Origin: Citrus sinensis
Taxonomy: Eukaryota > Streptophyta > Magnoliopsida > Sapindales > Rutaceae
Direction of reading: 5' to 3'
Assembly: GCF_022201045.2 (NCBI RefSeq)
Contig: NC_068560.1
Coordinates: 4,310,001 to 4,374,000 of the forward strand
DNA: 64,000 nucleotides
The notes beneath the pieces are model-generated. The model saw only the letters and a program-made list of their open reading frames with translations, did not search any database and had not been told where the DNA came from. The position numbers and the translations under genes were made by a program. Below are positions 15,115-53,640 of the stretch, one piece after another. The first letter of the stretch is position 1. Each line of letters opens with the position of its first letter.

Positions 15115-15125
15115 GCCCCCCTCAA
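15115..15125 (-). other. Copia polypurine tract
   Basis: TTGAGGGGGGC on the minus strand, directly abutting the 3' LTR. This is the expected primer for plus-strand DNA synthesis. Confidence 0.8.
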
Positions 15126-18100: not shown

Positions 18101-19793
18101 GTTGAGAAAGATGAAAAACAGGTGATGTATGATAAGCAGAAGATGACATGGAAGAAGATTTCATCAACAGCTTGTAAAGACCTTTCTCAGCAAGGCCCTG
18201 CAGAAGAACTTGCCCCTTCATGTCCTTAACATAACAAACATTTCCACAAAATTCAACAGAGAGTGAATTATCAGATGTAAGTTTGGAAATGCTTAGTAAA
18301 TTCTTAGTGATTGTAGGAACAAGTAACATATCTTTAAGTGCTATAGTGAAGGCATGTGTGTAAGGATGTTTTGAAGCTCTAAATGATAAAAATGCATGAC
18401 CAATATGAGAAATTGAAAGACCTTGACCATTTTCAATAATGAGTTGATCAGTACCTTTGTAGTCTTCCTTAAAATGCAAGTTCTCCATGTTGTTGGTCAA
18501 GTGATGAGTTGCCCCACTATCCAAGTACCAGCCATCATCAGCAAAGCTTTCAAAATTAGCCACATAAGCTTCTGCAGGTGCATAGTTATCAATTCCAGAA
18601 TAGCAGCTTGCCTCAGATGCAGGATGATTATCATAGTTATCATAACCTTGATATGGATATGTAAAGCCATCAAAGTTAGCAATATATACTGATCTTGGTC
18701 CTTTTCCTCTGCCTAGACTTCTTGAAGAAGGGACATAATCCTCCACAAATCGATGCCAGCAAATATCAGCAGTATGACCAGGCTTAAAGCAAATCTGGCA
18801 AACCAATTCTTCTGCATTAATTAGAATTCCTTGAGGTCCATTCATATTAGTGACTCCAGTCCTAGTAAATTGTATTGGATTCCTAGGTGCATGAAAGGAG
18901 TTAACATTATTTGGGCCAAATGAGTGTCCTCTTCCATATCCACCTCTGTGATTGCCATTAAACATCCTTGGAGACTGAAAAATATTTCCTCTTCCAACAG
19001 TATGATTTCTACCAGTATTACCAAACTGAGCACCAGCATATCCTCCTCTTCTAAAATTATTTCTAGATTGAGCATAAAATGCCCTTGGATAATAGGCATT
19101 TGTGTAAGCATAATTTGCATTAAACATGCTTTTATCATTCTGCTCTTGTTCAAGTCTGGTTTCATGAGTTAATAATAATGCATAAGCATCATCATAGTCC
19201 ATTTTTGAGCCAGTTATAAAGGTAGCAATATCACGATAGCCTGCTCCTAAGCTATTAAGAATTGTCAGCATGAGATCTTTCTCTGTTATAGGACTTCCAG
19301 CACTAGCAAGCTTATCTGCCACAGTTTTCATTCTGATGCAGTAATCTTCAATACTCATTGATTCCTTGCTAAGAGTATTTAGCTCATATCTAAGTTGAAG
19401 AACCCTAGCTTCAGATGGCACACCAAATTTCTTTTCTAAAGTTCTCCAAACATCAAACGAGCTACCACAATTTATAACAAGATTTAGAGTACCTTCACTT
19501 ATTGATGATAGCATCCATCCAAGCAATGTTTGATCATGTGATCTCCAATTCTGATATTCTGGATTATCAATTTTCTGAATAGATCAATCAGCTCCAACTT
19601 GAGTGAACTGTTCTTCAGGAGCTGGTTTTGTTCCATTGATGAAGCCTTCCAATCGATTGCCTCTTATGGAAGCTAAAACTTGAAAACGCCAAAGTAGATA
19701 GTTCGATCGATCTAGTTTAATTGGAGTGTTGAAAGAAAAATTTATTTGACTTTGTTGATTTGTTTGCTGAGCACTAGAGCTTGCTCTTACTAT

Positions 19794-21056: not shown

Positions 21057-21387
21057 TGTTTGGGAGAAATACGTCGACGAGACCAGGCACGGTGAGCAGA
21101 TATCTGATGGCAGAGTTCTGCGAACCGGTGTGTTCCGTAAAAGCCTGGTGCGCGGGGGAACAGGAGCAGAAATATCCTGCTCGTCCACGAGCACGTCATC
21201 CGCGAGGCAAATTTCCTGTAAGAGGCATAAGGCCATTCCGGCTAGAGGTCGAGAGGCGAGGAGACCCGGTCGACGGCAGTTGGCAAGGCATGCTCTCCAG
21301 CCCGAGAATCTAGGCACGACAGCCACGCTTTCCCCAGAACCGTGGCGTAACACGCAAGATCCCACGTTTGCCCATAACGCAGCATAA
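21057..21387 (+). mobile_element. Left part of a Tat/Retand-type solo LTR
   Basis: GC-rich sequence starting TGTTTGGGAGAAATACG directly after the duplication CCTAT (21052-21056). The right part lies at 33957-34440, and CCTAT recurs at 34441-34445. Together they make an 815-bp solo LTR inserted in the ankyrin gene and later split by the Athila element. It is related to the LTR at 50254-50957, which is in the opposite orientation: compare the complement of 21250-21312 with 50743-50830. No internal region remains, so it probably arose by LTR-LTR recombination. Confidence 0.82.
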
Positions 21388-21728
21388 TGTTGAGTGTTAG
21401 AAAATGCATATTTATAAAGGAGAAAACCGTCATTTTACATTTTAAGTCTTACTAACAACCCTTACTTTTATATATTTAACCTTCTTGTGATTTAATTACA
21501 TGTGTTTTATTTTAATTAAGTATTTTATGTATTTTAGGGGCATTATAGTCATTTCACAATAAAGGAGAGATCAGACGGCAAAACGGACATCACTTTTGAA
21601 CTCAGGACGGTCGAAAACCTTAGGAGGAGCATAAAAGGAAAAATGGCACTATTCACATGTACAATACTATTCACGTGTATGGTACTGTATACGTTACTGT
21701 TCACGACACTGTTCACATAAACGGATGA

Positions 21729-21998
21729 TGACGTGGCATTGACCGATGATGTGGCATTGACTGATGAGGTGTCACGATCCTGTTGGACTAAAATTCTTAT
21801 GTACTGTTGATGGTGACGTGGCAGCATATCAGTGGACGAAAAATCTCGCGTACGGTGCATGCATCACACAGGATTATTTTCAACCAAACCGCGTTACTGT
21901 TCATCCGGGTCAAACCGCGTTACTGTTCAAAGTCGGGTCAAACCGTGTTACTGTTCATCCGCGTGGTCAAACCGTGGACTGTTGACTGATGACGTGGC
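21729..21998 (+). promoter_or_regulatory. Cluster of TGACGTGGC motifs in the LTR U3
   Basis: Three copies of TGACGTGGC, which combines a TGA/as-1-type core (TGACG) with an ABRE/G-box-like ACGTGGC, at 21729, 21814 and 21990. bZIP factors of the TGA and ABF groups bind such sites, and they often confer stress, salicylate or ABA responsiveness. The same cluster is in the 3' LTR 11,177 bp downstream. Confidence 0.55.
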
Positions 21999-22055
21999 GC
22001 AATCCTGAGCGTCCAAACTGTTTTTAATCCGATGGCCATGATTTACTCCATGTAT

Positions 22056-22065
22056 CTATAAAAAG
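22056..22065 (+). promoter_or_regulatory. TATA box of the Athila-like LTR promoter
   Basis: CTATAAAAAG followed by a GGGGGCATCCCCCCC hairpin-like stretch, so transcription should begin about 30 bp downstream, near 22085-22095. The duplicate lies at 33233-33242 in the 3' LTR, where it could drive the sequence downstream of the element. Confidence 0.7.
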
Positions 22066-22780
22066 GGGGCATCCCCCCCCTAATTTGATATCTCTGAATC
22101 CATTTTTGGGATCCATTTTCTGTAATTCCCTCTCCATCTTGTATTTTCTTCGTATTTTAATAAATTTCCATTTTGCCCCTAGTTCAATTATGAGTAGCTA
22201 ATTTCCGTTCGAGCTTGGGTTGAAGGTGAAGTCTCAACATGTGTCATGGGCTTAATTTGGTAAATTTATTTTCTCTTCCCCTCTAGTTTTTGTGGATGTT
22301 TTGACTTCTCGTCGACAAATAATAATATTCTTGTCTAGTACCGCCTTGGTTTCACCGGCCCCCTAGTACAAGGTTATTATTATTTGGCACGATAAGCCCT
22401 TAGCACCATATTGATTAGAGCGTGGTTCATGAGGTGTGGATTCCCCCCTCATGATTTAATTGGCATTAATACGGATTATTTAGCCCATGATGCATGTTGA
22501 TACGGATCCAGATACCCAAGTACGTCATTTCAATAGATCTTCGCTTCAATTTATTCTCGTCATTTCAATTCCAATTTCAGAATTTATTATCGCCATTTTA
22601 ATTTAAGTTTTAGCATATTCCAAATCATTTCCACCAAAAAATCCAACCACTCATTTACAAAATTAATTCTATATACAATTAAAATCCACCTCCTCGTGGG
22701 ATCGACACTCGTCACCATTAGTCTATACTACAATAGATTCGTGCGCTTGCGAGTACATTAAAATTTGCACAACAAGTTTT

Positions 22781-22798
22781 TGGCGCCGTTGCCGGGGA
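22781..22798 (+). other. Athila-like primer-binding site
   Basis: TGGCGCCGTTGCCGGGGA, six bases after the 5' LTR. This is the primer site common to Athila-type elements, usually attributed to tRNA-Asp. Confidence 0.88.
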
Positions 22799-22806
22799 GG
22801 TAAGTA
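22796..22806 (+). other. Predicted splice donor in the retrotransposon leader
   Basis: GGGAG|GTAAGTAA, with exon end 22799, is a near-consensus plant 5' splice site directly after the primer-binding site and 380 nt before gag-pol. Placed there, it could make spliced mRNAs for the downstream accessory ORFs, as retroviruses do for env. A well-placed acceptor is at 28981-28982. Confidence 0.5.
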
Positions 22807-23183
22807 ATTTTAATTCATAGAATTAATTTTTGTGAATAATTTCTTTTATTTGTTTTCTTGTATTTTTTTATTATTAAAAAAAAAGAAAAAAAAAGTGAAT
22901 CTACATTTAAAGGTTAGTATTTCTTTTCTTTTTCTCTTCTTTAAAATTTTGTAATTTAATTTTCTATTTATTTTTCTTTGTAATTTTTTTTTGTTTATCT
23001 TATTAATTTAATTTTTAGTTAATTTCTTTCATGTATTTATTTTTGTGTATTTTTATAGAAAGGTTGTAATAGCGCAATAAGGTTAGTATCGTAATTTCTC
23101 CCTCTTCTTTATTTTTATTTGTTTTGTTCCCATCTTTATTTTTTGTTTTGTTTGCATCTTTATTTTTATTTTATTTATTTTGC

Positions 23184-26100
23184 ATGCATGGTCGTAGGTC
23201 ATTATTACCTAATCTTGAACCTATAGACCTTGAATTAGAAAAAACACTTCGCACACACAAACACGTTAAAAATAAAATGGATTTACAAGCACCACAGGAG
23301 AGGCCATTTAAGGACTATTTTAGTCCCTTAGCTAATTTGAGCACGTCATGCATAAGATACCCAAATGTAGCTGCTAGGAGTTTTGAATTAAAACCTAGTG
23401 TGTTAAATTGTCTCCCTACATTTTATGGCCTAGAAAATGAGGATCCATATAATCATTTGAATGATTTTCATGCCATTTGTCAAACATTCAAATATGAGAA
23501 TTTTTCAGATGATGATGTTAAACTTAGACTATTCCCATTTTCTTTAAAAGATAGAGCTCGTTCATGGTTAAATACTTTACCTGCTAATAGCATTTCATCA
23601 TGGGAACAAATGGTAACGAAATTTTTGAATAAATATTTCCCAGTGCATAAAACCAATGCTATTCGCAGGGAAATCTCAGAGTTTACCCAGAAAGATGACG
23701 AGCAATTTTTCGAAACATGGGAGCGATTCAATGGGCTACTCTTGAAGTGTCCACATCATGGGTACGAGAAATGGCACCAATGCCAATACTTTTTGGAGGG
23801 ATTACTACCAAATGTGCAAGAATGGCTAATGGCGACAAGTGGAGGAGAGCTAATGTCAAAAAGTGCATCCGAGATTTGGGAATTCTTCCAGCGACAAGCG
23901 GATAATTCCCAACAACGGAGTCGATCACTCAGGAATACTAGAAGAATTAAAGGAGTAAATGAGGTTCAAATTGGCGAGTCAACTTCAGGAATCAAAGAAG
24001 TCAAGGAGATGGTTGAAAGTCTTGCTCGACAAATAGCATCGTTATCGACTGCTAAATCAACAGAACCACATGACCATGACTCATACTCAGATCAAGCCAA
24101 TGCCATAGGTGTAATGAGAAAGCCATCAAATTACAACCCATACTCCAACACATATAACCCTGGATGGAGAGACCACCCCAATTTTTCATGGTCTCAAGGA
24201 TTTCAACAGAATAGACCAGCAGCTCCAGCTCCACCAATGCAACCAATTCCACAAAATCCTCAAGCCTCTCAGCCACCATTTAGACCATACAATCAGAACC
24301 AGAACCACTCTCAACCTAGACCATGGGAGGATGCATTTCAGAATTTCAGGAATGTTACTCACTCCACGATTGAGCAACAGAACCGCACCATTGATGGACT
24401 ACGAAATGAGTTGAGAGCAGGCTTCAACTCACAAGCTCAATCGGTTTCAAGCCTCGAGAAGATGGTGGGACAACTTGCTTCTTCAGTTCAGACCTTGGCA
24501 ATGACCGTTGAGAAAGGTAAGTTTCCAAGTCAACCAGTGCCTAACCCTAAAGGAGTGCATGAAGCAAGTACCAGTTCACCACAGCAGCATGGAGAAGTCA
24601 AAGCAGTAATGACCTTGCGAAAAGGAAAAGAAGTCGACAACAAAGTGGAGATGCCGGTGACAAAAGAAAATCAAATTGTACCTGTGAATGTTGAGGAATC
24701 ATCACCGGAGGAGAAAGAAGAAACCAACCCACGAGAATACATTCCGAAAGCTCCATTTCCTCAGAGGTTAGCGAAAGGCAAGAAGGGAAAATCCACAGGT
24801 GAGATTCTTGAAATCTTCAAACAGGTAAGTGTTAACATCCCTTTGCTTGATGCTATTAAACAAGTTCCATCTTATGCCAAGTTTCTTAAAGACCTTTGTA
24901 CTAAAAAGAGAAATATGCATGTCCAAAAGAAGGCATTTTTAACAGAAAACGTTAGTTCTATACTCCAACATAAAATTCCTTTAAAATGCAAAGACCCAGG
25001 CTCCCCCACTATCTCATGTAGTATAGGGAACCACACAATTGAGAATGCTTTGTTGGATTTAGGAGCTAGTGTAAATCTGTTACCTTATTCAGTGTTTGTG
25101 AAACTTGGACTGGGAGAATTACACCCAACTCCAGTGGTGTTACAACTTGCAGATCGGTCCACAAAAATACCTCGTGGTATTGTGGAGGACGTGCTTATCC
25201 AGGTAGACAAATTTTATTTTCCTGTTGACTTCATTGTAATTGACACTCAACCAATACAGGATTCAAGGAAGCACATCCCCATTATTCTAGGCCGACCTTT
25301 CTTGGCAACTGCGGATGCTCACATTCAATGTAGAACTGGAAATATGCAGTTGTCCTTCGGCAACATGACTATGGAGCTGAACATCTTCAACATTGCCAAA
25401 CAACCTCACAGTGCAGATGATGGAATTGTTGATGTGGATTTAATTGAAGCATTAGTTGATGACACTTTTCTTTCAAACCTTAGTGATGATCCTTTACAAA
25501 CATGTTTAACTCACTTTGGTTTTGATTTTGATATTGACAGATCGGTTGATGAGGTCAACGCCCTGCTTGACTCAGCACCATCTATGGACACTAATAAATG
25601 GAAGTCAAGAGTTGAGCAACTAGCACCATCAGAGAAGCAACTCATTCCATCATCAGAATCACCACCGAAACTCGAGCTCAAACCATTGCCCAACACTTTG
25701 GAATATGCGTTTTTGGGAGAAGAAAGTACTCTGCCGGTAATCATCTCATCATCCCTAAATGACGAACAAAAAGGTAAGTTGTTGGATGTTTTGAAAGAGC
25801 ACAAAGGGGCATTAGGATGGACCATAGCAGACATTAAAGGTATAAACCCAGTAGACTGCATGCATTACATTCACCTTGATGAAAATGCTAAAACTACTAG
25901 GGAGATGCAACGTCGGTTAAATCCTAACATGAAAGAAGTTGTTAGAACTGAAGTCCTTAAGCTATTAGATGCAGGTATCATTTATCCAATTTCTGATAGT
26001 TCATGGGTCAGTCCTGTACAAGTTGTCCCCAAAAAGTCAGGAGTCACAGTAGTTACGAATGCTGATAATGAATTGATACCCACTAGAGTAACTACAGGAT

Positions 26101-28574
26101 GGCGTGTATGCATTGATTATAGAAAGTTGAATTCTGTCACACGTAAAGACCATTTTCCTTTACCATTTATTGATCAAATGCTTGATAGATTAGCAGGCCA
26201 TGAATTTTATTGCTTTCTAGATGGCTACTCAGGATATAATCAGATTCCCATAGCACCAAAAGATCAAGAGAAAACTACTTTCACTTGCCCTTTTGGCACA
26301 TTTGCATATAGGAGAATGCCATTTGGATTATGTAATGCACCTGCTACATTTCAACGATGCATGCTAAGCATTTTTTCTGATATGGTTGAACGATTTCTTG
26401 AAGTCTTTATGGATGACTTTTCTGTCTTTGGTGATTCATTTGATCAATGTTTACATCATCTAACGCTAGTTCTGCAGAGATGTATCGAGAAGAATTTGGT
26501 CTTAAATTGGGAGAAGTGTCATTTTATGGTAAAACAAGGTATTGTCCTCGGTCACATCATTTCGAGCAAAGGTATTGAGGTGGACAAAGCCAAGGTGGAT
26601 CTCATTTCTAATCTTCCTCCACCCAAAACAGTCAGAGAAGTAAGATCTTTCCTTGGGCATGCTGGTTTCTATAGACGTTTCATTAAAGATTTTAGCAAAG
26701 TTTCTAGACCCTTATGCAATTTACTTGCTAAGGATGTACCTTTTATCTTTAATGATTCATGTCTCATGGCGTTTGAAAAATTAAAACAATTGTTGACATC
26801 ATCACCCATCATTCAGGCCCCAAACTGGAGCTTACCATTTGAGCTCATGTGTGATGCATCTGATTATGCAGTAGGAGCAGTATTAGGACAAAGAGTTGAT
26901 CGAATTCCCCATGTTATTTACTATGCTAGTATGACATTAAATGATGCACAGTTGAACTATTCAACTACTGAAAAAGAAATGCTAGCAGTAGTGTTTGCAT
27001 TAGAAAAATTTCGATCTTATCTCATTGGTTGTAAAATAATTGTGTTCACAGATCATGCTGCTCTTAAATATCTTCTCACAAAGAAAGATGCAAAAGCTAG
27101 ACTAATTCGTTGGGTGTTACTTTTGCAGGAATTTGACTTGGAATTCAAAGATAAGAAAGGGTCAGAAAATGTTGTGGCAGACCACCTCTCTCGTCTCCAT
27201 TTTGACACAATTACAGAATCATTACCATTGAATGAGTCATTTCCAGATGAACAATTAATGAATGTGGAAGTATTACCTTGGTATGCTGATATAGTTAATT
27301 ATCTTGTTACAGGTAGACTTCCAGAGCATTGGACCAAGCAAGACAAGATTAAATTCTTTGCGGAAATAAAGAATTTCTTTTGGGATGACCCATATTTGTT
27401 CAAGTATTGTGCAGACCAAATTGTTAGACGATGTGTCCCAGAAAGTGAAATTCAGAATATCCTTTCATTCTGCCATGAACAAGCTTGTGGAGGCCATTTC
27501 AGCGCTAAGAAAACAGCGACTAAAGTTTTACAATGTGGTTTCTATTGGCCATCTATATTTCGAGACGCTTACACTTTCTGTTCTTCATGTGATAGGTGTC
27601 AACGAATGGGGAGCATTACACGAAGGAACATGATGCCACTAAATCCAATTTTAGTGGTTGAGATTTTTGACGTATGGGGTATCGACTTCATGGGACCCTT
27701 TCCCCCTTCTTTTGGCCATCAATACATATTGGTTGGTGTTGACTACGTCTCAAAATGGGTAGAAGCAATTCCATGTAGGACCAATGATCACAAGGTGGTG
27801 ATAGGATTTTTGAAAAGCAACATTGTCTCGCGCTTTGGATTCCCTCGAGCAATAATCAGTGATGGTGGTGCCCACTTTTGTAACAAAGCATTCAAAGCTC
27901 TTTTGACAAAGTATTCAATCACACACAAAGTGGCGACCCCGTATCATCCGCAAACCAGTGGCCAAGTTGAGATCTCCAATCGAGAAATAAAGCACATATT
28001 AGAAAAAACGGTGAGGCCGGACAGAAAAGATTGGTCATTAAGACTTGATGATGCCTTATGGGCATATAGAACGGCTTTCAAGACCCCGATTGGGATGTCA
28101 CCCTACAGGCTAGTGTATGGAAAAGCTTGCCACCTACCTGTGGAACTCGAGCATCGTGCGTATTGGGCCATCAAGAAATTCAATTTTGACATGCAGCAAG
28201 CCAACTCAGAAAGAAGATTACAACTGGCAGAACTTGAAGAAATTCGCAATGATGCATACGAAAATGCCAAGATTTACAAGCAACGAATGAAAGTCTTCCA
28301 TGACAAGCACGTTATGAGAAAATCGTTCACTCCAGGTCAGAAAGTGCTTTTATTCAATTCTCGCTTGCACCTATTCCCAGGTAAGTTACGCTCTCGTTGG
28401 TCTGGTCCCTTTATTGTTCATACTGTTTTTCCACATGGGGCAATTGAAATTAAAGACCCAAAGAACGGTGTCACGTTTAAAGTTAATGGTCAAAGATTAA
28501 AGCCATATCTAGAATACCAACCACGTGGAGAAGACACCGAAATAAATTTGAGTAACCCATCAGATTTGAATTGA
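23184..28574 (+). CDS. gag-pol: Athila-like gag-pol polyprotein, intact
   Basis: An uninterrupted frame of 1796 aa from ATG 23184 ([17 protein letters not shown]); a second possible start is the ATG at 23277. Gag region (about 75-300): [18 protein letters not shown] and WFNKYF-like retrotransposon-gag text. Protease near 621: [12 protein letters not shown]. Reverse transcriptase about 900-1130: [11 protein letters not shown] and FMDDFSVFG (the YxDD-equivalent). RNase H near 1218: [14 protein letters not shown]. Integrase 1430-1620: zinc finger ([17 protein letters not shown]) and catalytic text [26 protein letters not shown]. It should produce virus-like-particle proteins and the enzymes for reverse transcription and integration. 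No stop or frameshift is visible, so the element may be autonomous. There is no chromodomain at the C terminus. Confidence 0.95.
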
Positions 28575-28703
28575 TTTTTTTTTTCTTTCTTTTCGTTGAT
28601 TTGATTTTGTTTTCTTTCTTTATATTATTCTTTTGCTAATTGAAATTGTTTTTGCATAAGTGTGTTTATTTTACCATTAAGTTTTCTCTTATCATTGTTA
28701 ATC

Positions 28704-28937
28704 ATGAGTCTCATACTTAGGCCGTTCCTCCTGAACATTCTTAAACCACTTCAACGTGTCAAAACTCATCTCAAAAGGCAGATTCAATTTTGTAAAACAC
28801 AACGCATTTGGGCTCTACACCCACCAGAGTTAGTAGCCTATGTTGAGGGTTTAGAAAGCCAACTCAGAGACATTGAGAGAAGTGTTTACGACATCCAGTT
28901 GGAGCTTGAGGTAAATTCAATAAGAGGACGATTTTAA
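28704..28937 (+). CDS. Small accessory ORF (77 aa), unknown function
   Basis: Starts MSLILRPFLLNILKPLQRV at ATG 28704, 129 nt after the gag-pol stop. The first 15 residues are hydrophobic, followed by a basic stretch and then a predicted helical, acidic segment (ELVAYVEGLESQLRDIERSV). The frame is open upstream to about 28662 without an ATG (FILPLSFLLSLLI), which would lengthen the hydrophobic part if a non-AUG start or splicing is used. This could be a remnant of an env-like membrane protein or a leader peptide. I recognise no family. Confidence 0.4.
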   Translation: MSLILRPFLLNILKPLQRVKTHLKRQIQFCKTQRIWALHPPELVAYVEGLESQLRDIERSVYDIQLELEVNSIRGRF

Positions 28938-28967
28938 TTTTCTTTGTGTGTTTTAATTTGTTTTTCT

Positions 28968-28982
28968 GTTTGTGTGCTTTAG
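28968..28982 (+). other. Predicted splice acceptor before the zinc-knuckle ORF
   Basis: A pyrimidine-rich run TTTTTCTGTTTGTGTGCTTTAG ends with AG at 28981-28982, 97 nt before the ATG at 29079. With the donor at 22799/22800 it would delete gag-pol and put the zinc-knuckle ORF first on a short mRNA. Prediction only. Confidence 0.45.
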
Positions 28983-29078
28983 TTTGTTACCCCGGTGAAG
29001 TGGCGGATAACGGTACTCCGTGACAATCAAGTCGGTTACTTCAGTTTCCCATAATAACTGATATTCTGAGGCGAAGGT

Positions 29079-29636
29079 ATGGACAGAAACGAGATTCTAG
29101 CGAAGCTTCACAAGCGATTCCCTTCACTTCCTCAGAATGCCCTCCTTACGATCTATAAAGCTCGGTCCGAACGCATGCGATTACTCATGAGGAATAACAT
29201 ACCTGCTGACATCCGTTGGTTAATCGAGGCTAAAGTACGATCGGCAGGTGAGTTACCTCCAAAATTTATTGCATACATGCCTGGTTGTGGTAAAGGAAAT
29301 TATGCAAGAAAACGACGAGCTCGAAGAATTTCTGTTGCTTGTCATAAGTGTGCTAGAATGAGTTGCAATAAAAACCCATGTTCTTTAGGAATGGTGTCTG
29401 ATAACAGGGAAGATAAGATTCAATTCATTAGGGATGGCTTGAATAAGGAGTCATTGGATGATATCCTTTTGTCTCTTGAAACGCATCCCAGTGGATATGT
29501 GCAAGGAGCGATTCTCCAGTTATGGCCATTATTCCAGAAAGAGCATGCACAATATAGTCTCGGGAATCTGACTATAAACGACCCTGTTTGCCAGTTTATA
29601 AGAAAACTGGATAGGAAGCCTATCCTCGACCCATAG
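29079..29636 (+). CDS. Basic zinc-knuckle protein resembling carlavirus nucleic-acid-binding proteins
   Basis: A complete 185-aa frame from ATG 29079. The N-terminal 65 residues look helical (LAKLHKRFPSLPQNALLTIY). Residues 69-86 read GCGKGNYARKRRARRISV, an arginine-rich patch, followed directly by a four-cysteine cluster C88-x2-C91-x4-C96-x4-C101 (CHKCARMSC...). A GCGK..YAR.RRA patch directly before a CxxC zinc motif is the hallmark layout of the carlavirus cysteine-rich nucleic-acid-binding protein family, whose members bind RNA/DNA and in several viruses suppress RNA silencing. The C-terminal 80 residues (PSGYVQGAILQLWPLF...) are not part of that layout as I know it. The role here is inferred: RNA binding or anti-silencing would help a retrotransposon. 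It lies between the small ORF and the LOG-like ORF. Not a gag duplicate, since its sequence is unlike gag. Confidence 0.7.
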   Translation: MDRNEILAKLHKRFPSLPQNALLTIYKARSERMRLLMRNNIPADIRWLIEAKVRSAGELPPKFIAYMPGCGKGNYARKRRARRISVACHKCARMSCNKNPCSLGMVSDNREDKIQFIRDGLNKESLDDILLSLETHPSGYVQGAILQLWPLFQKEHAQYSLGNLTINDPVCQFIRKLDRKPILDP

Positions 29637-29956
29637 AGGGCGTTCAAGCCGTTTCTGGACGTAAAACCAGAGGAAGATGTGAGCCACAGTCGCAACTACC
29701 TGTAAATATCCTTTTACTTTATTGTTATTTTATTTCACTATTGTCTTATTGTTTGCATTATTGTCTTTAATAATTTTATTACTATTTGCTTTTTCCTTTT
29801 TACTGTTTTCTTTTTGACTTGCGAGCCACGTGCTTTACGCGTTATTTGACACTAACATATTACCTCATACACAACCATGACCCACTATCACCGAGACTCT
29901 TAAATGTGATTTCTTTTTTGTCAAGCACTCACAAATTGTTTTTGAGAAGTATCACA

Positions 29957-30625
29957 ATGTCAGCTACTCCCAATAGACAATTCAAGAACATTTGTGTGCT
30001 TTCTGGATTTACATATGGCAAACATAAAGAGTTCGTTGAGGCAGCCATAGATCTTGGTCGAAGCATAGCAGCGAGAAATTTACATTTGGTGTATGGAGGA
30101 GGTAACCGAGGGTTATCAAAAATGGTCTCCGAAGCAGCTTTTATCAGAGGAAGTCAAGTGTTAGGCATCATCCCAAGAGTCTTAAAACCATTGGGCAGTT
30201 CGTCTGACTCATCAACTGGAGAAGAGTTAGTCGTCTCAGGTATGCAAGAAAGAATAACTGAAATGCTTAATCATGCTGATGCTTTTATTTTCCTTCCAGG
30301 AGATCTTGCAACACTAGAGGCACTTATCACGCTAGCATCTTGGGCCCATCTGCACATCCACCAAAAACCCATCGGTTTGTTAAATGTCAATAACTTTTAT
30401 GATGGCTTTATCGCATTTCTTAACCATGCAATAAAAAACTATTTCATTCCCGCTAATGTGAAAAAACTCTTTATTTGTGCTCACACTGCTAATGAGCTAC
30501 TTGATCTGTTACAAGCGTATAAACCGGAGCCAGACCCCTGGACCTTTGTGTTGGAGCGCCCAAATAATGATGGTAACAGTAGCAGCAGTAAGAAGTACAA
30601 ATTAGATTTAACTCTCCGCCTGTAA
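29957..30625 (+). CDS. LONELY GUY-like protein captured by the retrotransposon
   Basis: A complete intronless 222-aa frame from ATG 29957. Plant LOG enzymes are about 210-230 aa and release active cytokinin bases from cytokinin riboside monophosphates in the cytosol. Family text is clear throughout: FKNICVLSGF (10-18), LVYGGGNRGLSKMVSEAA (44-61), VLGIIPRVL (68-76), the conserved Arg in MQERITEM (99), LASWAHLHIHQKPIGLLNV (126-144) and FIPANVKKLFICAHTANELL. The normal signature PGGxGTxxE is PGDLATLEA here (114-122): two glycines and the final glutamate are replaced. GLMG is replaced by GLSK. A Ser/Asn-rich basic tail (GNSSSSKKYKLDL) is added. So the fold is probably kept, but catalysis as a LOG is doubtful. 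The lack of introns implies capture through an RNA copy. The frame is open upstream of the ATG to about 29786. Confidence 0.88.
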   Translation: MSATPNRQFKNICVLSGFTYGKHKEFVEAAIDLGRSIAARNLHLVYGGGNRGLSKMVSEAAFIRGSQVLGIIPRVLKPLGSSSDSSTGEELVVSGMQERITEMLNHADAFIFLPGDLATLEALITLASWAHLHIHQKPIGLLNVNNFYDGFIAFLNHAIKNYFIPANVKKLFICAHTANELLDLLQAYKPEPDPWTFVLERPNNDGNSSSSKKYKLDLTLRL

Positions 30626-32564
30626 ATATTTTCTTCTGTGTTGCACCACCCAGGTGATGTCTTCTAAACTCTACTTCTTTCATTTCAAACATTGAGGACA
30701 ATGTTTCGTTCTGGTTGGGGGGAGGGAATAATCGACAATTATGAAATTTTGGTTAAGTTTTTACTAATTTTTTGTTGTAGAAACTAACTGTTGCTAACTT
30801 TTTGTGTTGAAGATGACTGAATATGGAGTGTAGTGACTCTAGAAACGCATCTTCATCGTTTAAAAAAAAAATTAAAAAAAAAACTTAAAAAAAAAAATTA
30901 AGACATTTTCTTTTTTCTTTATTATGTGTTTATGTTTATTTTTCTTCTTTTTAATTTATCCTCTATAAAAATGCATTTTCCAACTTTTGAGTCGAAGATG
31001 GCTGAACATGGAGTGTAGTTCCTCTAGAAACGCATCTTCTTTAAAAAAAATAAAAAAATCATTTTCTTTTCTATCATTTTTGTAACTTTTCTAAATTAAT
31101 TTTTCTACATCATTTTCACATTTCTGCATGCATATTTTTCTTTTTTTTTATGTTTAGAATAGGTTGGGGGGTAGAATGTTGTTTAAAAAAAAAAAAAATT
31201 TGATTTGTTTTAACATTGGGTGACATGATTAATTTAAATTTTAGTATTTGTATTATCTTTGGTCTTAAGTGATGTTACATTATGTTTGCTACTCTACATG
31301 TTGATGTTGGAGACATATATGAGTTGCTTGAAGGAATGAACATGTCATAATAAGTACCAAGTGAGTTTTTGAGCCTATCATTTTTCTTGGAGAGTAACCC
31401 TTTTGCCCATTCTTTATACAGCTTAGCAATTTATTATTTTATACACGATCTCTAAATTACTTTTGAGTTAACCCTTAAAAAAAAATTGTAAAATAAAAAA
31501 AAGAGAAAAAAGAAAAAGAAAAAAGAGTGTGTTGCTACATTTGGAGGCCCATCTAACTAGTAGATATGGAAGATTATTTAGAGCCCTAAAAGACGATGGA
31601 GAGGCCATCTTTGATCCGTTTGAGCCTTTCAAGCCATCCCTTTTATTTAATATCCATAGTTAACCCTTTTGAGCCTTTTAAAAAAAAAAAAAAAACCTTT
31701 TCTTTGTCAACTTATCATCTTGACCCACTCCGATTTGGAGTATTACCCGATATCTTATAAGTTCCATCACCTATTTATGTTTGAGAAAATGTAAATAATT
31801 ATTTTGTTCAGTGAAGTTATGCCTAATAAAAGCAAAAAAAAAAAACAAAAAAAAACAAAAACAAAAGTTGTTGTTTCAAAAGAATAAAAATAGGTGAAAT
31901 CCACCTTGCAACTTCCAAAAAAAAAAAAAAAAAAAAATTTTCTCTGCATTTTTCTCAAACATACACTTTGTTTTCCTTATTTCCCTTCTTTGTTAACCAT
32001 GTCCCTAGCCTACGTTACGTCCTAATAAAAGTCCTTCTTGATTTTAGGGAACTATAGTCCGAAGTAGAAGCTAGTTATATGGGCTAAAAAGATGTAGTGA
32101 TGCATAATTAAAAAAAAAAGATAAATAAAGTGGGTTGACTAACATTTTATTTGACTTGAGATCGTATTATTTCTAAGCTGAGGGCATATTTATTTCATCT
32201 TGGTGAGAGCATGTGATATCACTTCTTTATTATTTTCTCTCTCAATTACCATTCATTGGAGTGACTATTTTTATTGGGATTAATTTATTTGTGAGAGTGT
32301 CACTACTTCCAGTGAGATTTTGGGGTTTGACATGTCATTCTTGAGAGTAGCTAAAACAAAGTCTACTGGGCTAATTCATGTGGATGGTTGATGTGGGTGT
32401 GATGTTGCTTTAGACTGGAGATAATGCTTATACTTTTATTTGATTGCTATCATTAATCTGATGGAATAAATACGAGTGTTTCTATTAAAAAAAAAAATAT
32501 TTTGAATTTGAATTTTGTTTTCGCTTTATTTGCTAGGGACTAGCAATAAGCTGGTTGGGGGGTG
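30626..32564 (+). other. Non-coding 3' region of the Athila-like element with PPT-like tracts
   Basis: 1.9 kb of A/T-rich sequence. It begins with CATTGAGGACAATGTTTC..GGTTGGGGGGAGGG (30691-30727), a motif common after the last gene of Athila elements. A block TGGAGTGTAG..CTCTAGAAACGCATCTTC is repeated at about 30827 and 31010. G-rich, PPT-like tracts occur near 30713, 31162 and finally at 32551-32564, where CTGGTTGGGGGGTG abuts the 3' LTR and is the true polypurine tract. No ORF of note. Confidence 0.7.
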
Positions 32565-33951
32565 TGTTGAGTGTTAGAAAATGCATATTTATAAAGGAGA
32601 AAACCGTCATTTTACATTTTAAGTCTTACTAACAACCCTTACTTTTATATATTTAACCTTCTTGTGATTTAATTACATGTGTTTTATTTTAATTAAGTAT
32701 TTTATGTATTTTAGGGGCATTATAGTCATTTCACAATAAAGGAGAGATCAGACGGCAAAACGGACATCACTTTTGAACTCAGGACGGTCGAAAACCTTAG
32801 GAGGAGCATAAAAGGAAAAATGGCACTATTCACATGTACAGTACTATTCACGTGTATGGTACTGTATACGTTACTGTTCACGACACTGTTCACATAAACG
32901 GATGATGACGTGGCATTGACCGATGATGTGGCATTGACTGATGAGGTGTCACGATCCTGTTGGACTAAAATTCTTATGTACTGTTGATGGTGACGTGGCA
33001 GCATATCAGTGGACGAAAAATCTCGCGTACGGTGCATGCATCACACAGGATTATTTTCAACCAAACCGCGTTACTGTTCATCCGGGTCAAACCGCGTTAC
33101 TGTTCAAAGTCGGGTCAAACCGTGTTACTGTTCATCCGCGTGGTCAAACCGTGGACTGTTGACTGATGACGTGGCGCAATCCTGAGCGTCCAAACTGTTT
33201 TTAATCCGATGGCCATGATTTACTCCATGTATCTATAAAAAGGGGGCATCCCCCCCCTAATTTGATATCTCTGAATCCATTTTTGGGATCCATTTTCTGT
33301 AATTCCCTCTCCATCTTGTATTTTCTTCGTATTTTAATAAATTTCCATTTTGCCCCTAGTTCAATTATGAGTAGCTAATTTCCGTTCGAGCTTGGGTTGA
33401 AGGTGAAGTCTCAACATGTGTCATGGGCTTAATTTGGTAAATTTATTTTCTCTTCCCCTCTAGTTTTTGTGGATGTTTTGACTTCTCGTCGACAAATAAT
33501 AATATTCTTGTCTAGTACCGCCTTGGTTTCACCGGCCCCCTAGTACAAGGTTATTATTATTTGGCACGATAAGCCCTTAGCACCATATTGATTAGAGCGT
33601 GGTTCATGAGGTGTGGATTCCCCCCTCATGATTTAATTGGCATTAATACGGATTATTTAGCCCATGATGCATGTTGATACGGATCCAGATACCCAAGTAC
33701 GTCATTTCAATAGATCTTCGCTTCAATTTATTCTCGTCATTTCAATTCCAATTTCAGAATTTATTATCGCCATTTTAATTTAAGTTTTAGCATATTCCAA
33801 ATCATTTCCACCAAAAAATCCAACCACTCATTTACAAAATTAATTCTATATACAATTAAAATCCACCTCCTCGTGGGATCGACACTCGTCACCATTAGTC
33901 TATACTACAATAGATTCGTGCGCTTGCGAGTACATTAAAATTTGCACAACA
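32565..33951 (+). repeat. 3' LTR of the Athila-like element
   Basis: 1387 bp, identical by eye to the 5' LTR except for one A/G difference. The target duplication CATAA follows at 33952-33956. Confidence 0.95.
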
Positions 33952-33956
33952 CATAA

Positions 33957-34440
33957 CGCAGCAGTCGGAGTCCCATGCCGTCCCCCAAAAAAGCGGAAAC
34001 AAGATCTCACAAAACCACGACACCACGCTTTCCCCAGAACCGTGGCGTAACACGCAAGATCCCATGTTTGCCCATAACGCGGCAGTCAGAGCCCCATACC
34101 GTCTCGAAGAAAGCGGAAAACTGGGATTCAGAGGAAGCCTATAAAAAGGTAGCCAACGAAGGTAAATGGGTTAGCATTTTTGAGATTAGAAAAGAAATTC
34201 TAAAAGAGAGAAAACAACCTAACAGCCATAAGATTTGTGGCAAGTGTTCCCCGAACCTTCATATCTGACTTGAGCGTCGGAGGGTTTGCGCTGGGAAAAC
34301 AACCGGCGTACTCTGACCTGTCTGTGTGCGCAGGAACCTCTGGAGAAGAAGCCTTGCGAGGAGACCCCCTGGTCGTGATGAAGTTGATCGAGCAGAGATC
34401 CTGGTCGTAGAACGAGGAGAACCGGAATCTCGCATCAACA
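33957..34440 (+). mobile_element. Right part of the Tat/Retand-type solo LTR
   Basis: Continuation of the LTR that starts at 21057. It contains the TATA-type CTATAAAAAGG near 34140 and ends GAATCTCGCATCAACA before the duplication CCTAT (34441-34445). The last 190 bp match the complement of 50254-50475, including ACTTGAGCGTCGGAGGGTTT. A roughly 125-bp stretch of the LTR (from CCACGCTTTCCCCAGAACCG) is tandemly duplicated: copy 1 runs 21327-21387 plus 33957-34020, copy 2 begins near 34022. The Athila element sits inside copy 1. Confidence 0.82.
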
Positions 34441-35520
34441 CCTATAGTGTTCCAAACTACAAAAGAAGAAGCGGCTAGCTCAGGACTCTGAGGAGGGTCC
34501 ACCGCTGCTTGAAAACCCATCGTAGAAATCACTGATGCTACAACCATTGCTGCATTAAGCTTTTTTTCCAACCAATCGTCTAAATTCCAAGGAGTTCCTT
34601 TTAAATCTTTTTTACCTTCATGCTTTTGATTATTTTCATGGGATGTTACGCTGTTGGTCTGTGTGACGGCAAGTTCATTTACTGGCAGCTGCAGATCCTT
34701 TGCACTAATTGCTCCAGCACGTCGAAGTAATTCCCCAGTATCCCAATCTTTTATGTCCCTTTTGCTTTGTGCTAGGATATCCCATGCCGTGAAGCCATTA
34801 GCAGTAACAGCATTCACTTCGATTGCAGTACTGGTTGTCAAAAACTTGATGGCCTGCATGGATGTTAATATTAACCAATTCCTAGAGAAACATTTTTGTG
34901 TGTATCGAGAACCCTACTTTTATATGTGATATGAGTGATCGATACCTCAATTTGTTTATCAGCAACTGCAAGGAGCAAGATGGTCATGCCATAATCATCC
35001 TTGGCATTCAAAAGTTCAAAGTCTCCCATATTTTCCAATAAAACTTCAGTGCTTCCAACTGATTGTGTTTCACACACAAATGTAAGATGGTCTCACCCCA
35101 GATCAGACGGGTAGAAGCAGCATCCGGTTTTGCTCTGACCAGCTCTTCCAAGACATCAATATGGCCTCTCATGGCTGCCAGATGAAGAGGGTTTCTTCCA
35201 TCAACATCTGTATCAGAACACTTGTCTGGGATGACTTGTAACAGTGCCTTTACTATGCCGACATAACCTTTCTGTGATGCTATGTGAAGAGCTGATGATT
35301 TCCGCGAGTCTAACTCTTCAGCAATCCGAGGCTTTTGGGGTAAAATCTCCTTCGCAAAGTCCTCGTGCCCAAGCAATGCTGCTACATGCAGCGGAGTCTC
35401 AGAGAGACAATTCACTGTGGGTCTCTCAAGAATTAATGGGTCTTGTTGACGCAATTCCAACAAGGTATTCACACTCCCTGCCATCGCTGCTTCATAAAGC
35501 TTCCTTTCCATGTTCTCCAT

Positions 35521-36221
35521 CTTGTGTGATCTGTGCAAATAGATATTAAAAGACCTGCCTGCTGGTATTTATACTTGCAAGAGCTGAGTGCAACCCTTTG
35601 ATTAATGCAGGTGAAAGAGCTGTAAATAGCTAAGAGAAGTTTGGTTGCACTTTCCATTCTTCCCGGTGGTGTTTAAAGAGGATTTGTTTTCAATTTTTTT
35701 TGCCCCCCAGCAAAAATCTTTAGACCTTTCTATGTTCACGTATTTCAAAGGAGTCCCATGCGGAGAAAAACAGTGAAGAAAAAGTGGATGCAAGGGAAAT
35801 TATGACATCAAAAGTTGTGGTTGATGACATCAAAACGCGCACAACGCGTTCTCGAATTTATAACGGTTAAATTCGAATACTGCATCTGCAATTATGCAAC
35901 GGTTCGTTTACAAAGTGGATGTGAATTATTTGAGGAAGACACGTGTCCTTTTCTCACGGTTTCAGTGCAATTCAACTCAGTTGAGAAAATAACCATCATC
36001 CTTATTTTTATTTCAGTGATGCCATCCAAAGTCCAACATGTTGATTATTACAATCGTATTCGTATTTCAAATTCAAAATACATCCACAAACTCTGGCTGC
36101 TGCCTCTTCTATCAATTCTTTTGCATCATCTATCTGTATAAATTTGAGTTAATCCTCCGTTCCTCTATATTTGTACAGCTATCGAACTTGACTCTTTAAT
36201 TATAAATCTGGAGATTCAAGT
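35521..36221. other. Spacer between the two ankyrin genes, with a promoter on the minus strand
   Basis: Immediately upstream of the ankyrin start at 35520 (minus strand) lies GACCTGCCTGCTGGTATTTATACTTGCAAGAG..., which recurs upstream of the second copy (37563-37600). It is a shared duplicated promoter with a TATTTATA-type box. The rest of the spacer has no gene I can recognise. Confidence 0.5.
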
Positions 36222-37514
36222 TCAGCTCCAGTTTCTCAGAAGTGTTACTCGCTTATTCTCGATAACACATATGCATGAAACATCGTCTAGAAGGAAATCT
36301 ATAGAGACCAAGTAAGTTAGTACCATTGCTGTGATGGCAAACCACGTGTCCCCATTAGAATCCACATGAAAATCCGACGGTTAAGCGGTAAGCCGCTTAT
36401 GAGCAGTAGTATAATGCTCAGAGAAGCCAGAAAACCTGTGGTGTTACAAAATAAAAAGCAAGCGTAACGTTGTGTGGTTGCATCTAATTCGAAAGAAGAA
36501 GCGTCTTGCCAACGACTGTGAGGAGGGTCCACACCAGCTTGGAAAGTCATAGTAGCAATCAGTGATGCTACCACCATTATTGCATTTCGCATTTTTTCCA
36601 ATCAATCATATCCATACTTGAGATGTTTTTTCAAACCTGTTTTACCTTCTTTCTTTTGATTATTTCCATGTGATGTTAAGCTGTTGGTCTGTGTGATGGA
36701 AACTTTAGTTGCTGGCTGCTGCATTTCCTTTGCACTAATTGCTCCAGCACGTCGAAGTAATTCCCCGATCTCCCAATCTTTCATTTTCCTTTTGCTATTT
36801 GCTAGGATATCCCATGCGGTGAAGCCATTTGCATAACAGCATTCACTTTGATTGTAGTACTAGCTGTCAAAAACTTGATGGCCCGCATAGATGTTGTTTA
36901 CACTTAATATAAGAAATTAAGTTTGTTGATATTAATCAATTCCTAAAGAAACATCTTTTTGTGTATTTGCATTGAGACCATACTTTTATATGTGATATGA
37001 GTGATTCCATACCTCAATTTGTTTATCAGCAACTGCAAGGTGCAAGATGCTCATGCCGTAATCATCCTTGGCATTCAAAAATTCAGAGTCATCCGTATTT
37101 TCCAACAAAACCTTCAGTGCTTCTAGCTGATTGTGTTTCACACACAAATGTAAGATGGTCTCAACCCAGATGAGAGGGGCAGAAGCAGCGAGTGGTCTTG
37201 CTCTGACCAACTCTTCCAAGACATCTATCCGGTTTGACTTCTAACGGTGCATTTACCATGCCAACATAACGTTTCTGTGATGCTATGTGAAGAGCTGATG
37301 ATTTCCGCGAGTCTAACTCTCCAGCAATCCCAGGCTTTTGGCGTAAAATCTCCTTCGCAAAGTCCTTGTGCCTAAGCAATGCTGCTACATGCAGAGGAGT
37401 TTCAGAGGGACAATTCATTGCGGCTCTTTCAAGGATTAATCTGTCTTTTTGAAGGAATTCTAACAAGGAAGTTACACTTCCTGCTAACGCTGCTTCATAA
37501 AGCTTGCTTTCCAT
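36222..37514 (-). pseudogene. Second ankyrin-repeat / PGG-domain gene copy, decayed
   Basis: A tandem paralogue of the gene at 14779-35520, free of large insertions. Exon 1 starts at ATG 37514 (MESKLYEAALAGSVTSLLEF) and runs to about 37015; exon 2 from about 36885 to TGA 36222-36224. The membrane part reads NAIMVVASLIATMTFQAGV, TTGFLASLSIILLLISGLPL and, in another frame, ITAMVLTYLVSIDFLL. Defects relative to its neighbour: a roughly 65-nt deletion in exon 1 near 37225 that removes most of one ankyrin repeat, a 1-nt deletion near 36832, TGG to TGA (minus strand) near 36602, and a frame change near 36345 between the last two membrane helices. It cannot encode a full protein. Confidence 0.85.
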
Positions 37515-38990
37515 TTTCTCTATCCTGTGTCACGTGTGCAAATTTAGCTTACACATTTTAGAAGACCTGCCTGCTGGTATTTATACTTGCAAGAGTTGAA
37601 TGCAACCCTTTGATTAATGAGAAAGAGCTGTTATTTATTCCTTTTTTTTTTTTAATTCGATGTGTGAATTTCTATGAAAGGGTCAAGAAAGTACTGAAGC
37701 ATATAATCAACATGTTCCTGCTTGGATTAAATTTTATATGTGAAACTTGAAACATTCGATAGAAGCAAGTAACCTGTCCTTGTCGAATGGGATAATATAT
37801 GGCAAATAAATATTTATTGTATAGATAGATTTGTTAAACTTCGGTAGTCACTAACTTGACTTTATTAAAAATGACAGGGTCTCCTAGTTCAAGTTCTCGG
37901 AAAATACCGTCGGCATAACAGAAATACTATGTTAATTTATCGTGAATGTGTATGGTCAAACATGATTGAATTTCGAATATTTATTTGACAAGATTTTGTT
38001 GGATGGTTAGTGGGAGGACATACATAACTTAAAATAAGAGGGGCATATGAAAGCAATGAATTAGTGTATGTTAGGAAAGTTATAGAAACTATCATTTTAT
38101 TCTGATCTAAGGTACTGTGGATGTATCTTTTATTGAGAAAGGATTTGTGTTCACTTTTCTGTCTTCACCTATTTCTAAAAGGGGGACTCGTTGGTTGAAT
38201 ACAAGGTTCTCAACAAACTCTTTCTATTAATTTTTAATGGTATTAAACAAAAAACGACTACATTTTCTTATATCGATATTACACTTGTTATGTACTATAC
38301 ACAGTCTGTCTTATGATTGAAGTCAATTAGTATTTTATGAACATATCTACATTAACAAAGTCGAAATATAATTTTTTTATCCACCAGATGTGATCTTAGT
38401 TGAAAGCACAACAATGGAGAGCGTGAATTATAGTCTTTTATCTATTTTGTGCATTAAAATTTGATCCATTTTCTGTAGATTGATTGAGCTGTTCTTGAGT
38501 CTTCATTGAGTTCTGGTGGTTTTTTCTGGCCCACCCCCCAACCCAAAAAAATCTCCAAGAAAGAACCAAAAATCATCCCTCACTTTTCAATAATTTGGTT
38601 CACCTATTTTCATCTTCAAATCTGAACAATCTTCGAAAAGTTTAGTGAACTATATTATTTGAGCTTGGGGGAGAAGCAGTCGTGCAATTTGAGTAATGGT
38701 AACCATGAACATGGAAATGCTCACTTTCTTTAAAAAGGAAAAAAAAATATAGCCCAAGAAACGTAGCAAAAGCGCAGAATAAGAAATGAAGAACCTTTAG
38801 TTGGTAATATTGGTACCAATACACCCAAAATTCATTCTTATGTGACTATTAAAATTAAAAAAAAAAAAAAATTAACATCCTTGCCATCATTCTTGGCGCT
38901 CTACCAGAAACAATGTCTGACGAACAAACAGAATTCTAACATTTGCTTTTATTAATTACAAGAAAAGGTGACACCTAATTGGGGGACGTA
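37515..38990. other. Intergenic DNA between ankyrin and NLR genes
   Basis: Starts with the duplicated ankyrin promoter (TATTTATACTTGCAAGAG near 37580). The rest is AT-rich with no supported gene. Confidence 0.5.
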
Positions 38991-39966: not shown

Positions 39967-42900
39967 CTACTCGCTGTACATTCTCATCCTTGCTTTAATT
40001 TGCTGCATCAAAAGACACATTTAGCTAAAGAGATTGGTTAAGAAATTGTTCAAATCAAATTATCACAGCCACCGCGGCTTCATTCATTTTATTACACTCA
40101 TAAAAGAACATATTAAAGTTCAAATTACCTGAGGCAAGTCATATTCTCTTGAGTAGACGTTGGCTCTCTGAGAAATCAAGTCTTCTTGTTTCCCATTTCT
40201 GAAACGTACTCCCGGAATAGCACATCCCAATATGTACAGTTCCTTCAATGTCGTCATTTGATGAAAGTGGTCGGGCAATGCCTTTAATTTGGGGCAGCTT
40301 ATAATTGCCAAGTATGAAAGACATGGCATGATGGAGGTGCTTCCCATTCCTGTGATTCCATAATCCCACTCTTCAAATTCCTCCATCCAGTAAAACGTCA
40401 GTGATTTCAATTTGGGGAAGGCAATAACTGATGAAGACGAAGACGTGTCATTATCACTTTCGATTCCCAAAAATTCATTTGCCACTCTTTTCACACTCTT
40501 CAATCCCCATATCATGAGCTTTTCAAGGGATGACAACTTTCCCAAAGGAGGAATCTGCTTACACTTTTCACACTTCTCAAGTGTTAAACTCCTTAGATTG
40601 GTTAATGGCATCATCCAGCCGGGGAAAACAGTGTTGCCTCTGTATAACCCTATCAATAATTCCTTCAAATTCAGAGGTGGTTGCAAGGCTTCAAGAAGTT
40701 GCTGATCGTCCTCCTCCTTCCTCCTTCCTCCATCTTCTTCTTCCTTGTCAAACCAAAGTCTCAAACAGGAGAGGTATTTCATTTTGTCAAGCTCTAATCT
40801 CTTAGCCTCGCCCACATCTGTCACATTTCCCAGTCTACGTATGCCACATACATGGAGGAGTTCCAAGTTTTTAAGAGATTCAAGCCTACATGCATTGCTA
40901 CCACCAACACCTCCTCCTCCACTCACATGGAACTCAACCAAGGTCCTAAGACTCGTTAATCTCCCAATCCCTACTGGCATGTGACCTAAGGAATCAGTTT
41001 TGTCATCCAGTAAATGCTTCATATTCACTAGCTTCCCAATCCCCTGAGGTAATTCTTTAAGACCATAGCAATCACTAACATCTAACTTTTGAAGATTATA
41101 TAACTCACACAACGTCTCAGGAAGTTTCTCTATTGACTGATGAGACAAATTAAGATACCTTAAATGCACCAACCTTTTGACATTTGTAGGAATCTCTAGA
41201 ATCGTAGACTTTGTGTAGAATAATTTACTTACTTCTATTGCCCTTAAGCTCGTCAATTCCTCGAATAATTCTTCTAGGATGTTACCATCTAACGACGAAT
41301 GGTCAAAAACAACGCCACCAATTAAGAGGCTACGCATTCTTTTAATCCTACAAGTGGAGATAGGAAATGGAGCCCCTTCATGAATACTTAACATCAAATG
41401 ACAAACCTTCTCACCAAGAGAGTTTATGGCAGCTGATTCTTCACTACCACTAACTACTGTCGATAAACATTCATTTTGACTTACAAATTGGGCAAAATCG
41501 TGTACTATATCATGCATTTTGCATTCTATAATACGATTATCATCATCTTTTTTAAACTCTTGAAAGAAAGAGCGAGTGGCTAAGATGTTAAAATACTCTT
41601 CACCAATTATGTTTGTCTCTTCGTCTTGTTCCACACCAAGATAACCTTGAGCCATCCATAACGTAATTAGTCTCTCTTTCTCTATATTGAAGTCTTTTGG
41701 AAAGACTGCACAATATGAAAAACATCTTTTTACTCTGGATGGCAAATCGTTATAACTCAACCATAAAGGGGTTAGAACACCTTTCTCAATCTCTTCTATT
41801 TTCCACAGCTCACTACTTAAGATTCTTTGCCACTCTTCTTCAGTTTTTTTAGAGCGCATGAGACTCCCTATTGCCTTTGTGGTAAGAGGTAAACCTCTGC
41901 ACTTGCCTGCAATCTTTCGCCCAATTTTTTCTAATTTTACACATTCCTCAATGGGCCGACCAAAAAATGCTATCCTATTAAACAACAGCCAACATTCCTC
42001 TTCAGCTAATTCCTGAACCGGGATAATATCTGTGGATCCCATCATGAATGCAACTGACTCCTTACGTGTGGTAACTAAAATTTTACTTTCAGGGAGACCA
42101 TTCTTTAGGCAATGGTAGAATGGCTCCCATTTCATATAATCTCCATCCCACACATCATCTAAGACAAGAAAAAATCTTTTTCCTGTAATAGATTTAGATA
42201 TAGTTTTAAGAAGAGATTGAAATTCGCCTAGACCAGAAGAAGAAACATCTAAAGCTTCAACTATGGCTCTGGCAATCCTAAACTCCTCGAAAGCTTCTGA
42301 TACACACACCCATAAAATTTTGTCAAACTTTCTATTCACCTCATCATTATTACAAGCTAGTTGTGCAAGAGCGGTTTTCCCTATGCCTCCCATACCAACG
42401 ATTGAGATGATATGGAGGCCTTTTTGGTGCTCACTACTCTCACACAACAACTTGCTTATGAGTTCATTCTTCTCACTAACTCTACCACATATCTCCTCCT
42501 CATCAATGAACGAGGCACTTTGTACTCGCCTTGGTATCTCACTACTTTTACTCCCACTCTCAAGAAATTTAAACCTATCCTTTTGAATGGCAATATCATC
42601 TAGCTTTTCATTGATTTCTTTGATCTTGACTGCAATGTCATGACGTAGAAAGACTTGTTTGAAACCAAATTCCTCTTGTTTGAAACCAAAGCAAGAGGCA
42701 GGAAAGCAGAAACATACCTTCTTTTTCTTATGAAGAGCAACAAGAGCATTGTCATCAACCCCACCCTCAATTTGCAATTTGCGTCTTGCTGTGATCCACT
42801 CATCCAACACATCTTCAATGTCGTTGGACACGTACTTCAGCTGTTCCAGCCAAAGTCTGACAGCTTTGTCCTTCACTAGCCTTTCCTCTGCATCATCGAG

Positions 42901-53459: not shown

Positions 53460-53640
53460 AGTGGACCAATCGGCAGAGACGGCTCTGCTTACTGATTCCC
53501 CGTCCTCTTGATTGGATTTTACGTTATGTACTTCTTTTTGGGACGTTTTATGTCGAGAATATTAGCTCTTTACTATTTTTGGCAAATTAATAAAACTCCT
53601 GAGTTTGTTTGCTTTGCTTTTCACTTTATTCTTTACTGTC

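Follow-up and report, generated by a model that had tools for sequence, protein, structure and literature searches.

A LOG-like gene kept under purifying selection without its enzyme motif in an Athila-like retrotransposon of Citrus sinensis

The DNA analysed here—64,000 nucleotides of Citrus sinensis contig NC_068560.1, hereafter the window—contains an LTR element of 12,564 bases at window positions 21388–33951, with all its genes and LTRs read on the forward strand. The 5′ LTR (21388–22774) shows one mismatch in 1387 positions against the 3′ LTR (32565–33951), and the target-site duplication CATAA occurs on the left (21383–21387) and again directly after the 3′ LTR (33952–33956); with LTRs identical at 1386 of 1387 positions and a 5-bp target duplication at both ends, this is a young element. 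A primer binding site, TGGCGCCGTTGCCGGGGA, which we take to be of the tRNA-Asp type, was read from the sequence 3′ of the 5′ LTR (22781–22798), and a G-rich tract, GGTTGGGGGGTG, occupies the polypurine-tract position (32553–32564) and abuts the 3′ LTR. Between them lie a gag-pol frame of 1816 open codons (23124–28574), in which gag, protease, reverse transcriptase, RNase H and integrase were identified from the list of open reading frames and Pfam matches, and two further genes: ORF2 (29079–29636; 185 aa), which encodes a protein like the nucleic-acid-binding proteins (NABPs) of carlaviruses, and ORF3 (29957–30625; 222 aa), which encodes a protein like the cytokinin-activating enzyme LONELY GUY (LOG).

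The domains of gag-pol follow the Ty3/gypsy order, with the extra ORFs placed 3′ of pol. Under published lineage rules, a chromodomain assigns an element to the chromoviruses and an extra archaeal-type RNase H to the Tat lineage (PMC6317226); gag-pol had no Pfam match to either domain up to an E-value of 1, and the label Athila-like fits the element. The gag-pol frame contains no CCHC zinc knuckle, and nucleic-acid binding could come from ORF2 instead. A small sense frame at 28704–28937, which starts MSLILRPF and runs into GTAAAT, resembling a splice donor, had no Pfam match when scanned from its third codon and is possibly a third small ORF or an exon. The noncoding spacer between ORF2 and ORF3 (29637–29956) shows 21.5% divergence between element subfamilies A and D, described below (317 aligned bases, 53 gap positions), which is less than at synonymous sites (70.5 changes in 153.7 sites) or in the 3′ region (42%); this may come from the difficulty of aligning AT-rich sequence, or the spacer may hold a signal under constraint.

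Elsewhere in the window, a 982-aa open frame on the minus strand (40120–43068) combines Rx_N, NB-ARC and LRR domains and represents a disease-resistance-type NLR gene. Pieces of a Ty1/copia element lie at 15096–19526, also on the minus strand, with an RVT_2 domain in a 547-aa frame and, on visual reading, a CCHC zinc knuckle in a 616-aa frame. Two diverged tandem copies of a gene (81–94% identical in pieces) occupy 34200–37631 and are called ankyrin-type on the appearance of their translation and a weak match to a PGG domain, and a tandem array of 4.8 copies of a 121-base unit is found at 53638–54215.

A first-pass annotation of the window had described a complete, intronless LOG-like frame of 222 aa that lies in a young element, after gag-pol and ahead of the 3′ LTR, and our analysis confirmed this description; ORF2 and the degeneration of the catalytic motif were not part of it. 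ORF3 matches Pfam PF03641 (E = 9.1e−28), scores 125.5 bits against TIGR00730, above the cut-off of 96.35, and has Arabidopsis At2g37210 as its closest solved relative (E = 5.3e−46). Its score against the NCBI LOG equivalog model NF058542 (91.8 bits, cut-off 300) was considered as evidence against LOG activity and then dropped, because a control fragment of At2g37210 also falls below that cut-off, at 133.9 bits. AlphaFold modelled the LOG-like protein with low confidence (mean pLDDT 36.8), so that retention of the fold is judged from sequence.

The motif PGGxGTxxE marks LOG enzymes (PMC7891180), and at this position (30296–30322) ORF3 reads PGDLATLEA. The motif was absent from all 60 fetched genomic copies (31 with PGDLATLEA, 26 with PGDLATFEA and three with close variants), from all 65 full-length element proteins (those of 221–224 residues out of 138 fetched) and from four more copies belonging to subfamilies B and C; each subfamily, in its most frequent form, has D, A and A where the motif has G, G and E. 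Given this loss in 60/60 genomic and 65/65 full-length protein copies, activation of cytokinin by ORF3 is unlikely, and the earlier proposal that the element produces active cytokinin is, as far as sequence predicts, not borne out; the altered motif leaves room for some different activity. Many of the listed element-borne LOG-like proteins are named cytokinin riboside 5′-monophosphate phosphoribohydrolase in UniRef or NCBI, and the catalytic motif is lost in every full-length one examined.

Copies of the gene are numerous in the same genome (299.7 Mb), where a search with PF03641 gave 1560 candidates, 150 of which were scored, all 150 exceeding the Pfam cut-off. The pattern PGD(L/F)AT-x-EA is encoded at 836 genome sites and its reversed control at none, a count that sees the motif alone and so may take in incomplete or damaged copies and passes over those in which the motif has changed. 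With the window protein as query (2104 candidates), a protein identical to ORF3 was found at nine of 150 scored places, including the window itself. A protein search returned 757 homologues, one cluster of which has 705 members; the organism given among the 120 listed was Citrus x changshan-huyou, and when the search was repeated from a diverged member, Citrus was again the only genus named among the matches listed.

An ORF2 match lies about 0.9 kb upstream of the LOG frame in all 68 fetched locus records, which are top-scoring matches rather than a random sample and represent 60 distinct places (records L001–L008 repeat places among L039–L068); in one of them, L057, the ORF2 match is partial, at 86 aa. 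As predicted, many copies in this genome carry the frame at the same place, and the ORF is not confined to a single copy. Four subfamilies, A–D, can be distinguished, with representative proteins 68–82% identical. A search for ORF2-bearing copies without LOG covered four ORF2 matches that lacked a listed LOG neighbour and did not establish a LOG-free relative: L075 and L076 carry a decayed subfamily-B LOG beside ORF2, over most of the LOG length, L077 has a piece of LOG near ORF2, and L074 has no LOG within 1.5 kb of ORF2.

At a single site in the genome, an uninterrupted stretch encodes PGGYGT-x-E(E/D); the site belongs to an intron-containing host LOG gene (L069). The motif-pattern search revealed no other host LOG gene, possibly because the motif is divided by an intron in such genes, and a search of the genome with an Arabidopsis LOG fragment gave, in the 150 scored rows, only element-like intronless matches (41–45%). 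L069, the only host LOG gene found, contains introns and the element copy is intronless, which makes it likely that the element captured a spliced host LOG mRNA, in line with the first-pass annotation.

Selection on the frame was assessed by pairwise Nei–Gojobori comparison of nine copies (three from subfamily A, two from D, three from B and one from C), which gave dN/dS values of 0.17–0.25 between subfamilies, at dS 0.48–0.90 and dN 0.10–0.16. For A versus D, the mean across 64 haplotype pairs—8 of 12 haplotypes by 8 of 17, out of 204 possible pairs—was 0.218 (range 0.19–0.24). Between the window copy and L039, there are 70.5 synonymous changes in 153.7 sites and 71.5 nonsynonymous changes in 512.3 sites (Fisher p = 1.4e−15); across the 181 codons of the LOG core, 96 are identical, 46 differ synonymously only and 39 change the amino acid. 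Two young A variants differ by nine synonymous and two nonsynonymous substitutions. The ratios of 0.17–0.25 between old subfamilies support purifying selection on the LOG-like gene kept by the element, in agreement with the expectation of a dN/dS clearly below 1, and, because loss of the motif is common to all subfamilies, the protein under constraint was one already lacking it. At plant substitution rates of 0.65–1.3e−8 per site and year, a dS of about 0.7 would correspond, to an order of magnitude, to 25–55 million years.

Within subfamilies, dN/dS was 0.06–0.17 in A (0.12–0.17 with the two young variants set aside) and 0.23 in D, and three stop-free copies of subfamily B gave 0.52–0.71 among themselves. 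Stops interrupt three of the 60 fetched genomic copies and, in subfamily B, 25 of 36 places (those most B-like, with at least 82% identity to P0098). This pattern is expected if copies decay after insertion and replicating lineages are constrained; the values within A and D being low, the contrast with decay depends on the three B copies. At the protein level, changes between subfamilies were more conservative than private changes (p = 1e−5) and also than random missense changes, and the comparison at host-conserved sites fell short of significance (p = 0.067); these protein-only tests, mixed in outcome, were superseded by the DNA tests.

ORF3 ends in LDLTLRL (30602–30622), a tail kept in all four subfamilies. 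The pattern LxLxLxL is present in all nine copies of A–D compared, and LxLxL falls within the last 12 residues in 97 of the 138 fetched proteins, truncated ones included. Among the 65 full-length proteins, the majority residues of the subfamilies differ at 2 of the last 11 positions, the tail, versus 14 of the 21 positions of the linker before it (p = 0.023); the constancy of the tail does not differ significantly from that of the core, where 44 of 181 positions vary (p = 1.0). None of the four Leu residues differs between subfamily majorities, and three of their four codons vary among the nine copies, always synonymously. The host gene L069, in a frame with its likely last exon, ends ...NTSLKTEIAR and has no LxLxL. 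EAR motifs of the LxLxL type bring in TOPLESS and histone deacetylases (PMC10942257). Short as the LxLxL pattern is, LDLTLRL would fit such a motif docking TOPLESS corepressors. Compared with plant LOG enzymes (At2g37210, At5g11950 and host L069), ORF3 belongs to the same family and has an alignable core, but it has lost PGGxGTxxE, shares 38–45% identity, carries the added EAR-type tail and has no introns.

The neighbouring ORF2 contains a basic patch, RKRRARR, and a cluster of cysteines (Cys88/91/96/101) at 29307–29381. Its 266 relatives include, among the 120 listed, proteins from Acer yangbiense, Xanthoceras sorbifolium, Populus x canadensis and Populus alba at 60–69% identity. Of 28 aligned relatives, 26 match PF05515 (Viral_NABP; best E = 2.8e−8) and 26 match PF01623 (carlavirus nucleic-acid-binding protein; best E = 4.8e−7), counting matches with E up to 0.1, and seven of eight relatives scanned singly exceed at least one of the two curated cut-offs; the window copy lies below both (16.3 against 20.9 bits for PF01623 and 14.1 against 23 bits for PF05515). 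The PF05515 match extends over up to 93 residues, the longest cases covering the basic patch and Cys cluster, and the full Cys pattern is missing in three of the 28 aligned relatives. A basic patch and a Cys cluster are both described for a carlavirus NABP (PMC7922177); the viral protein has a mass of 12 kDa, whereas ORF2 proteins have about 182 aa (185 in the window copy) and are encoded in a retrotransposon. From these profile matches and shared features, ORF2 appears to resemble carlavirus nucleic-acid-binding proteins.

The dN/dS of ORF2 between A and D (mean 0.26 across 64 pairs) is like that of the LOG frame; two A variants differ by two synonymous and five nonsynonymous substitutions (ratio 0.75), too few to judge. 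A profile of ORF2 had no match among solved structures, its AlphaFold model is of low confidence (pLDDT 58.2), and searches of viral contigs produced no relative of ORF2 or of the LOG-like protein. We found no report in the open-access literature of an NABP-like gene in an LTR element. We infer that ORF2 would bind nucleic acid for the element.

The explanation that we favour, and consider probable as a whole, builds on observations of the structure of the element, its copy number, the loss of the motif, dN/dS and the conservation of the tail. An Athila-like element family would long ago have acquired a host LOG transcript in spliced form; the protein that it encodes would have lost the LOG catalytic motif and gained a C-terminal LxLxL tail of EAR type; and the motif-less protein would since have been kept, by purifying selection on replicating lineages, as a non-catalytic accessory protein. 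ORF3 presumably no longer makes cytokinin and, on this reading, is a LOG-derived protein without LOG catalysis, probably an adaptor. Docking of TOPLESS-type corepressors by the tail, through which the protein might modulate host transcription or silencing to the benefit of the element, is a possibility that we hold to be somewhat less likely than not. More doubtful is an extension in which the two genes would form a virus-like effector cassette, with ORF2, related to a nucleic-acid-binding and pathogenicity protein of plant RNA viruses, and ORF3, a dead-LOG EAR adaptor capturing TOPLESS, together reprogramming host silencing or hormone transcription where the element replicates.

Three other explanations were weighed. 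Were ORF3 a working LOG enzyme, the element would raise active cytokinin and so favour its own proliferation, and membership of the LOG family (PF03641, TIGR00730, At2g37210), selection on the frame, retention of the E of T-L-E in most copies and of the arginine within the MHxRKxxM region in 47 of 51 copies among the forms listed would all be in keeping with that role; we nonetheless regard it as very improbable, as the most frequent form in each subfamily has D, A and A for the G, G and E of PGGxGTxxE and no examined copy holds the motif. LOG enzymes are oligomers, and a catalytically dead LOG might act as a poison subunit or decoy, forming pairs with LOG proteins of the host or binding the substrates of these, and thereby lower or redirect cytokinin activation. 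Constraint on the LOG-like core, with 96 of 181 codons identical, 46 changed only synonymously and 39 altered in amino acid, argues for such a role, but identity to Arabidopsis At2g37210 is only 41–45% and the conserved tail would be left unexplained; we judge it unlikely.

Strongly disfavoured, and to our minds hardly credible, is the view that the LOG copy is functionless cargo hitch-hiking in the element, its low dN/dS a remnant or an artefact. Copies do decay after insertion, as the stops in 3/60 fetched copies and 25/36 B-like places attest, but dS of 0.48–0.90 with dN of 0.10–0.16 between subfamilies contrasts with dN/dS of 0.52–0.71 in three decaying copies.

Steinbauerova et al., in 2011, are said to have described an ORF similar to LOGL4 in Athila-like elements. 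A YgdH/LOG domain has been recorded in consensus sequences of LTR elements from Citrus sinensis and C. clementina, and from Populus trichocarpa when no filter was applied, in agreement with Steinbauerova et al. 2011 (PMC9289625). The first-pass remark that no well-established case was known therefore needs correcting, and the capture itself is not new, since the LOG domain in Citrus LTR elements had been reported before. Those Ty3/gypsy consensuses and the window element share a LOG-like ORF in a Citrus LTR element and very probably belong to the same family; in the part of that paper available to us the domain is only listed, whereas motif loss, dN/dS, tail and ORF2 similarity come from the present analysis. 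For motif loss, selection, the EAR-like tail and the similarity of ORF2, we found no earlier report in the open-access literature, and these features, with the virus-like neighbour, appear to be new.

Other plant LTR elements offer partial parallels. The AlkB-like demethylase of orchid Ty3/gypsy elements is likewise a non-canonical domain acquired by plant Ty3/gypsy elements, but it is called functional in the title of the paper (PMC9289625), whereas ORF3 has lost its enzyme motif. Athila and Tekay elements of sunflower also carry additional ORFs, and modulation of RNA silencing has been suggested for an extra Tekay protein (PMC11728184); the sunflower ORFs encode other proteins, with no LOG or carlavirus-like protein noted in the sections of that paper available to us.

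The element provides a clear case of a captured host gene kept under selection by a plant retrotransposon after loss of its enzyme motif and, because the gene was kept in this way, it probably serves the element in another, testable way. ORF2 links plant repeats to a gene of plant RNA viruses and raises the question of the direction in which this gene has moved. For Citrus itself, element copies annotated publicly as a cytokinin enzyme inflate the LOG gene family.
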